Made by a program: the position numbers and the translations under genes. From positions 62,001 through 126,000 of the forward strand of contig CAMLCZ010000004.1 in NCBI GenBank assembly GCA_946478665.1: a stretch of 64,000 bases of DNA. The letters run 5' to 3'. Numbering within the stretch: the stretch's first letter is position 1; every line of letters begins with the position of its first letter. Below are positions 21,968 to 23,449 of this stretch, piece after piece. The stretch comes from an uncultured Bartonella sp. (GTDB lineage: Bacteria > Pseudomonadota > Alphaproteobacteria > Rhizobiales > Rhizobiaceae). Under the pieces are notes generated by a model, which saw only the letters and a list, made by a program, of their open reading frames with translations, did not search any database and was not told the origin of the DNA.

Positions 21968-22289
21968 AGGGCGATGCCCATTTTCCATTGAACTTAACGG
22001 ACTGGTTTATTGAGGGCAAAGTGTCGAGTCAGATTTGTTTACGGTTTAAATTGATCTGTACGTTTAATGTATATCTTGGATAGAATTCTGCCACTTTGTT
22101 CCCAATTGAGAAGGTGATGTGGCAATTAAGGCAAAATTGCAGCAATTATTAATGAATTATGAATAAAAAACGCTCAATTTGCTGATGGCTTGCACATCAG
22201 CTATGCAATCTTATGACTCCTCATAGTATATTAGCATCACTATATCGAGGCCAACAAATCAAACAGTATATAGTTTTTAGGTGTGTGTT
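21967..22289. other. 323-bp region upstream of the DUF1127 gene
   Basis: No coding region is supported. A seven-pair hairpin GCTGATG-gcttgca-CATCAGC sits at 22181-22201, about 90 bases before the DUF1127 start, and could be an operator or part of the 5' leader. I could not assign a clear promoter. Confidence 0.45.
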
Positions 22290-22433
22290 ATGAATCTTCT
22301 CCGTTCTTTCACGAGATGGCGTCGTTATCGTTCAACAGTGAATGAGTTGAGCCGACTCTCTACTCATGAATTAAATGATTTGGGTATTACCCGTGCAGAA
22401 ATTACCGCAATTGCGCGTCGCGCTGTTCGGTAA
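22290..22433 (+). CDS. DUF1127 small arginine-rich protein
   Basis: This 47-codon gene is too short for the ORF track. It encodes MNLLRSFTRWRRYRSTVNEL followed by LSTHELNDLGITRAEI, an exact fit to the DUF1127 (YjiS-like) domain with its helix ending in DLGI[TS]R. Short DUF1127 proteins in alphaproteobacteria bind RNA; one in Rhodobacter (CcaF1) influences sRNA maturation and is co-transcribed with CcsR RNAs. The 3' region here carries three hairpins that fit that arrangement. No strong ribosome binding site is seen (TTTTAGGTGTGTGTTATG). Confidence 0.88.
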   Translation: MNLLRSFTRWRRYRSTVNELSRLSTHELNDLGITRAEITAIARRAVR

Positions 22434-22442
22434 GTGTTTTTT

Positions 22443-22545
22443 GAGGCTTCCATCTTCCGAGCCTCATATAGGAAAACCTATCCTTCCCTTTGGTTTTCCT
22501 TTCTATAGCGCCTGTTGTTCCTCCCACAACAGGCGTTTTATTTTT
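22443..22545 (+). ncRNA. Triple hairpin with C/U-rich loops (cuckoo/CcsR-like sRNA)
   Basis: Ten bases after the DUF1127 stop, three consecutive hairpins are seen. Hairpin 1 is GAGGCT/AGCCTC with loop TCCATCTTCCG. Hairpin 2 is AGGAAAACC/GGTTTTCCT with loop TATCCTTCCCTTT. Hairpin 3 is CGCCTGTTGT/ACAACAGGCG with loop TCCTCCC and a following TTTTATTTTT, so it doubles as terminator. Pyrimidine loops able to pair with Shine-Dalgarno sequences, in tandem behind a DUF1127 gene, are the hallmark of the cuckoo RNA / CcsR family of Rhodobacterales and Rhizobiales. Structures are read directly; the assignment is inference. Confidence 0.65.
22509..22545 (+). terminator. Terminator hairpin of the DUF1127/sRNA unit
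   Basis: Ten-pair stem CGCCTGTTGT / ACAACAGGCG with loop TCCTCCC, followed by TTTTATTTTT. It ends a few bases before the stop codon of the convergent EamA gene. Confidence 0.88.
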
Positions 22546-22549
22546 CTGT

Positions 22550-23449
22550 TTACGATTTTGAAAATTTGTTTTGTGACGGCAACCTAAATTTAGTTTGTTC
22601 GGAATAACGTTTTTCTTCACGCAAAAATGTCAGTAGGCTTGATGCCATAATCAAGATAATTCCGATAACCATTGGTAAATCCAAATGATCGTGGAAAATA
22701 AAATAACCGAATAAAATGGCCCAAACCATTTGACTATATTGTGGTGTTGCAATAGCGATGGCGGGTACACGTCTAGCCGCTGCCATGGTAAAAATGGCTC
22801 CTAATGCTGCCAGCAACCCGTAACCCAAAAGGTAAATCCATTCGATGTTTTGAGGTTTGACATATGTTGGAATGCTCAACGTTCCACAAATGATTATAGA
22901 GCCTATGATGCCGCTTGCGTAAAGTGAGATACGTTTTTCTTTACCTCCCATAATACGCAGAATTATGATGGAAATTGCACCACTTAATCCGGCGAATACC
23001 GCTCCGATATGCCCTATATTCAAAGAGCGGAATCCAGGACGAAGGACGATAATGACGCCAAGAAAACCAATAATAATAGCTAACCAACGACGCCAGCCGA
23101 TGGGTTCTTTTAGAAAAAACATAGAAAGAATACTGACAAAAAGTGGCTGAAGAAAAATGAGTGTAAAGGCTTCGGCCATGGATAAATGGGTAAATGCCGT
23201 AACACTGCCGATAACACCAATTGCAGCGGATATTGTTCGCAATAACCACATTTTCCAGTTTTGTGAACGGATAATGTCAAACCAAGAGTCTTCTGAGCGT
23301 TTGACAAACGGAACAACAATCAAGCCAAATACAGCCCCATAAAACGCCGTTTCATAAGGTGGTAAAGCACCATTGATAAATTTTACGCATGCATCACTAA
23401 CAGCATAGGCGGCATAAGATGCAAATGAAAGGAAAACACCGTAAAACAT
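22550..23449 (-). CDS. EamA/DMT family transporter (RhaT-like)
   Basis: The product (about 299 residues) has ten hydrophobic segments in two EamA repeats, for example FAGLSGAISIIILRIMGG at the second repeat, and the LIFLQPLFVSILSMFFLKEPIGWRRW loop with the conserved glutamate/proline. The substrate is unknown; drug/metabolite transporters export amino acids, metabolites or lipids. The ORF-track TTG at 23476 lacks a ribosome binding site; the ATG at 23449 has AAGG eight bases upstream. It stands alone on the minus strand. Confidence 0.85.
   Translation of the reverse strand: MFYGVFLSFASYAAYAVSDACVKFINGALPPYETAFYGAVFGLIVVPFVKRSEDSWFDIIRSQNWKMWLLRTISAAIGVIGSVTAFTHLSMAEAFTLIFLQPLFVSILSMFFLKEPIGWRRWLAIIIGFLGVIIVLRPGFRSLNIGHIGAVFAGLSGAISIIILRIMGGKEKRISLYASGIIGSIIICGTLSIPTYVKPQNIEWIYLLGYGLLAALGAIFTMAAARRVPAIAIATPQYSQMVWAILFGYFIFHDHLDLPMVIGIILIMASSLLTFLREEKRYSEQTKFRLPSQNKFSKS

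Follow-up and report, generated by a model that had tools for sequence, protein, structure and literature searches.

A DUF1127 gene of an uncultured Bartonella sp. is followed by a hairpin array resembling a loop-drifted copy of the ar14 (NfeR1) RNA

In the locus type named CIN1 in the literature, a DUF1127 gene is combined with a cuckoo RNA (PMC10253847). A locus of similar layout in an uncultured Bartonella sp., lying within a stretch of 64,000 nucleotides (the window), raises the question of which RNA family its hairpins belong to, and whether they act as a regulatory RNA or serve the stability and termination of the DUF1127 messenger. The initial annotation had described a 47-codon DUF1127 gene with three adjacent hairpins, the last a terminator, and had read the whole as a reduced cuckoo/CcsR-like RNA. 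Judged from sequence comparisons, the locus is real and conserved and belongs to a known kind, of which it is a variant with drifted loops.

The DUF1127 gene and the hairpin array

The gene described initially is present, its product scoring 63.2 bits for PF06568, where the cut-off is 23.3 (Table 1). It is the only DUF1127 copy in the 2.31 Mb genome. With a 50-aa query, the protein shows 83% identity to its counterpart in Bartonella choladocola BBC0122 and 96–98% to those in MAGs of uncultured Bartonella; judged by these neighbours, the host is a Bartonella of the insect-gut clade. Hairpin 1 begins 8 nt after the stop codon on the same strand, giving the CIN1 layout of a short DUF1127 gene with a hairpin array directly 3′ of it, although the anti-Shine-Dalgarno (anti-SD) character that belongs to CIN1 is clear only for hairpin 3.

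Table 1. Positions of the features of the DUF1127-array locus in the window
Feature	Position	Strand	Basis
LsrB/VtlR-type box TGCACATCAGCTATGCA (putative LysR-type regulator site)	22191–22207	+	kept in 14/14 aligned loci
Probable -10 element CTATAT	22240–22245	+	upstream alignment; 32 nt after box
Ribosome-binding site AGGTG of the DUF1127 gene	22279–22283		
DUF1127 small basic protein, 47 aa	22290–22433	+	PF06568, E = 1.8e-17; ATG at 22290, stop codon 22431–22433
Whole array, ar14 (RF02344) match, model positions 1–123	22436–22541	+	55.8 bits, E = 1.8e-9
Hairpin 1, stem TGAGGCTT/GAGCCTCA, loop CCATCTTCC	22442–22466	+	MFE fold; 5/8 stem pairs compensated
Hairpin 2, stem AGGAAAACC/GGTTTTCCT, loop TATCCTTCCCTTT	22470–22500	+	MFE fold; core TCCTTCCCTT invariant in 13 genomes
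Hairpin 3, 12-bp stem, loop TCCTCCC, T tract (intrinsic terminator)	22507–22537	+	fold; terminator call

Folding of the array gave a minimum free energy of -40.0 kcal/mol, compared with -17.6 ± 2.8 kcal/mol for shuffled sequences (z = -8.1), and 0 of 200 shuffles folded as well; together with the terminator call, this confirms three adjacent hairpins of which the last is a terminator. The loop motifs claimed at the outset (CTTCC, CCTTCCC, and TCCTCCC) are all there. The sequence CCUCCUCCC is absent from all three loops, with UCCUCCC kept only by hairpin 3, and the loop of hairpin 1 is pyrimidine without the anti-SD core.

A covariance-model search, proposed with the initial annotation, returned a full-length match of the array to ar14. 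This match appears in E-value mode and lies 3 bits below the Rfam gathering score for ar14 (55.8 vs. 58.8 bits); orthologues of the array score 46.7–57.7 bits against the same model. No match to the CcsR1 model (RF02791) was found at E <= 5 in 22100–22700, and CcsR1 membership of the array was rejected. Many DUF1127-linked arrays of relatives match the CcsR1 model weakly. The first reading therefore held for the DUF1127 gene and the cuckoo-type (CIN1) arrangement, and its family assignment has to be changed from CcsR to ar14/NfeR1. Its description of the array as a reduced version was abandoned, because three hairpins are the normal number in canonical ar14 (PMC10746234); as in ar14, the three are consecutive and the third is a Rho-independent terminator, and the change sits in the loops, which do not share the identical unpaired CCUCCUCCC of every ar14 loop. 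The resemblance is not due to chance, given the full-length ar14 match and the conservation at the orthologous position in 12 further genomes. Elsewhere in the window, an ffh sRNA (RF01793; 13051–13102, + strand, 67.8 bits) is the only Rfam match at the gathering threshold.

Compared with characterized systems, the locus is mostly of a known kind but has unusual loop sequences; we regard the array as a drifted copy of ar14/NfeR1 (“cuckoo”) RNA. NfeR1 (Smr14C2) of Sinorhizobium meliloti is the type member of ar14 (RF02344), whose three hairpins each show CCUCCUCCC in the loop, on stems of variable sequence (PMC10746234; PMC7143759). Like the array, NfeR1 has unpaired C-rich loops and a third hairpin that is the terminator. 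Its promoter has an LsrB site and a CTATAT -10 element, to which the putative LsrB/VtlR-like box of the window locus, with a differing exact spacing, and its probable -10 element appear to correspond. It differs in that the array carries CCATCTTCC, TATCCTTCCCTTT, and TCCTCCC in place of three CCUCCUCCC loops, and in that the array lies behind DUF1127, apparently on one transcript, whereas NfeR1 has its own promoter. The CIN1 locus of Rhodobacter sphaeroides (CcaF1 and CcsR1–4) shares with the window a DUF1127 gene followed by C-rich-loop hairpins and a terminator. Its DUF1127 protein CcaF1 is 71 aa long vs. 47 aa here, and its four CcsR RNAs stand under an RpoHI/RpoHII promoter (PMC10253847), in contrast to the LsrB/VtlR-like box and the missing CcsR1 match in the window.

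Distribution in Bartonella and in the family

The array is found behind DUF1127 in 13 of 71 Bartonella genomes (the genome of the window and 12 others), and folds into three hairpins and a terminator in all of them. Between the two subclades, compensated stem pairs number 5/8 in hairpin 1, 1/8 in hairpin 2, and 2/12 in hairpin 3, a total of 8, and RNAalifold independently gives five; as these changes separate two subclades only, the number of independent covariation events is modest. Conservation of the loops, suggested initially as a check, was seen in full for loop 2 (UCCUUCCCUU), which is invariant in 13/13 genomes while the stems covary, in part for loop 3, which varies around CUCCC, and failed for loop 1, which keeps pyrimidine character only. 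The condition named initially as refuting the reading, unconserved loops on drifting stems, does not hold for loop 2. The DUF1127 gene itself is kept in 68/71 Bartonella genomes, and in the other Bartonella examined outside the insect clade it is present with no ar14-like array behind it. One genome (G063) is intermediate, with one TCCTCCC-type loop left and an AT-rich terminator loop.

The host genome also contains a canonical ar14 (copy A; G000:C10:27043-27163, 81.4 bits), so that the array behind DUF1127 is a second, diverged copy. Copy A has the loops CTCCTCCTCCC, CTCCTCCTCCC, and CTCCTCCC and sits among other genes, without DUF1127. Its orthologues have metal ABC transporter permease-like genes upstream and a gene for a DUF454-like protein downstream in many other Bartonella. 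In vector-borne-type Bartonella (L016–L031; L012 1501–1621), they are single-copy with anti-SD loops 1 and 2 kept, and the terminator loop of copy A in other Bartonella has decayed to a ATTGATTTAT-like sequence. Loop 1 of these copies, TTCCTCCTAA, is the loop reported for BbsR14 of Bartonella bacilliformis, an expressed sRNA of two stem-loops with TTCCTCCTAA anti-SD loops (PMC7717549). The array of the window does not share this loop sequence, and BbsR14 is a candidate orthologue of copy A.

At the level of the family, ar14 occurs in 146/151 genomes, representing 105/109 genera. Similarity to the DUF1127 protein of the window retrieved 28 loci from other genera of the family, and in 24 of them an ar14 match follows DUF1127 directly, at a distance of no more than about 135 nt. 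Loop-drifted DUF1127-linked arrays are present in other genera as well (L121, L129, L142, and L144). The loops at L121, L129, and L142 (genomes G137, G156, and G108) are drifted and C-richer, for example CCCTCCCCCTCC, suggesting that loosening of CCUCCUCCC has occurred more than once.

A putative LsrB/VtlR-dependent promoter

Alignment of the upstream regions shows a conserved block consisting of TTGCACA-CAGCTATGCA, a CTTGTCACTCCTCA-like sequence, and CTATAT, the last being the -10 element quoted for NfeR1 homologues (PMC10746234). Upstream of this probable -10 element there is no consensus -35, as expected of an activator-dependent promoter, and CTCCTCA is conserved there. The box resembles both the published VtlR motif CAATGCAGCCATGCA (PMC12595884) and the LsrB site of the NfeR1 promoter, TGCA-N6-GCAT (PMC10746234), from whose exact spacing the conserved TGCA...CAGCTATGCA deviates. 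LsrB activates NfeR1, itself an ar14 RNA (PMC10746234), and VtlR activates three small DUF1127 genes of Brucella, BAB1_0914, BAB2_0512, and BAB2_0574, through a CAATGCAGCCATGCA-type box (PMC12595884).

The host genome has only two exact matches to TGCAYANCAGCYATGCA, one preceding the DUF1127 gene and the other preceding canonical ar14. Each of the 13 two-copy genomes (and G063) likewise has exactly two, one per locus. Across the genus there are 60 exact matches in 45/71 genomes, many of them coinciding with mapped ar14 promoters, and none with a reversed-pattern control. At most of the family loci, a similar box precedes the DUF1127 gene by 84–133 nt.

A LysR gene (vtlR/lsrB-like) is present in the host genome, adjoining trxB, near an AbcR (ar15) gene; the trxB neighbourhood is the synteny described for vtlR (PMC7486931). 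The AbcR-type sRNA near the LysR-trxB pair (L152; G000:C2:282913-283035, - strand) is itself preceded by CGCATGGCTGGCTTG, a sequence similar to the VtlR motif in reverse complement. A separate promoter for the array was rejected, since no + strand promoter-like site was found between 22240 and 22560, which favours a single transcript. The DUF1127-array locus is thus probably switched on by LsrB/VtlR, as far as motif and synteny indicate.

Function of the array

We consider it likely, with a probability of roughly three in four, that the locus is an LsrB/VtlR-activated DUF1127-ar14 operon of the CIN1/cuckoo type with loosened anti-SD loops. The LsrB/VtlR orthologue encoded beside trxB would bind the box at 22191–22207 and give rise to one transcript, with the 47-aa DUF1127 protein encoded in its 5′ part and the three-hairpin ar14-like RNA, bearing its own terminator, as its 3′ end. 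In Rhodobacter, RNase E cleaves the DUF1127 mRNA to release the CcsR RNAs (PMC10253847), and the hairpins would probably be cut from the mRNA in the same way, or might function as its 3′ part. The resulting sRNA would block translation by pairing its C-rich loops with ribosome-binding sites. As the loops have drifted from canonical ar14, repression of general SD sites should be weaker, and the drifted copy may prefer GGGAAGGA- and GGGAGG-like sites, with the canonical copy under the same box keeping the general anti-SD role.

Against this reading stand the ar14 score 3 bits below the gathering cut-off and the lack of CCUCCUCCC in every loop, and the predicted pairing energies bear on both it and its main rival. 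For an ideal SD, the predicted pairing energy of each drifted loop is -8.3 to -8.7 kcal/mol vs. -10.5 to -12.5 kcal/mol for canonical loops, and so the sRNA function could be decaying; the other Bartonella examined, which have DUF1127 but no array after it, are compatible with such decay. The array would then be a 3′ UTR in which hairpin 3 terminates and hairpins 1 and 2 stabilize the message, its C-rich loops left over from an ar14 that is losing its ancestral function because the canonical copy suffices. The variation of loops 1 and 3 among close relatives, the lack of CCUCCUCCC in the window loops, the single TCCTCCC-type loop and AT-rich terminator loop of G063, the Bartonella outside the insect clade that keep DUF1127 alone, and the canonical ar14 in the same genome are all consistent with this explanation. 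We nevertheless hold it to be unlikely, since the three C-rich-loop hairpins are kept in 13 genomes while their stems change in a compensated manner, and since loop 2 does not vary within or between the two subclades, a conservation of loop sequence that stabilizers would not need.

A second rival reading gives the array a narrower role as a specialized paralogue, in which loop 2 has been re-tuned to a few GGGAAGGA-type sites, for example that of etfA, with the general role falling to the canonical copy. The predicted duplex of loop 2 with a GGGAAGGA site has an energy of -17.7 kcal/mol, and AAGGGAAGGA-N(2-12)-ATG occurs just once in the genome, at the ribosome-binding site of etfA in the etfBA operon. 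Over 11 nt this site, AAGGGAAGGAT (L155 1500–1520), is complementary to the invariant loop 2. Of 12 insect-clade genomes with a readable start, 11 retain AAGGGAAGGA before etfA, whereas the other Bartonella inspected have different SD sites there. Against this, the search pattern was picked after loop 2 had been seen, and in a control comparing window genes with two relatives, 23/89 SD comparisons showed runs of at least 12 identical bases. Such conservation being found in about a quarter of cases, etfA is a candidate target and a lead only. GGGAAGG-N(4-11)-ATG occurs 18 times in the genome vs. 11 for the reversed control, without clear enrichment. Besides etfA, the genes with GGGAAGG-SD starts include some that by eye resemble those for enolase, a carboxyl-terminal protease, and a universal stress protein; a transporter theme is not apparent. 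No loop-complementary SD sites were found within the window. A re-tuned paralogue of this kind is accordingly improbable in our estimate. Much the same doubt attaches to the broader proposal that the two ar14 copies might split the work within one LsrB/VtlR regulon, copy A as the general anti-SD RNA and the DUF1127-linked UCCUUCCCUU loop re-tuned to targets such as etfA, which we rate as rather improbable.

The loops might also serve a protein rather than mRNAs, the DUF1127 protein binding its own 3′ hairpins and autoregulating its expression. CcaF1 binds RNA and promotes the maturation of CcsR RNAs (PMC10253847), and DUF1127 and the array are 8 nt apart, both of which would fit. Yet DUF1127 occurs without an array in most of the genus and copy A of ar14 occurs without DUF1127, and DUF1127 proteins of Agrobacterium are reported to act through PhoR (PMC12501420), making a role of this sort, in cis or as a protein ligand, improbable.

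The locus brings insect-gut Bartonella into the range of the DUF1127-cuckoo RNA arrangement. A single genus displays graded states, from canonical ar14 through loop-drifted DUF1127-linked ar14 and a remnant to DUF1127 alone. The near-exclusive use of the box by the two ar14 copies links the reports on VtlR and DUF1127 with those on LsrB and NfeR1, and the two-copy box regulon may offer a compact test of what an sRNA with loosened anti-SD loops does.
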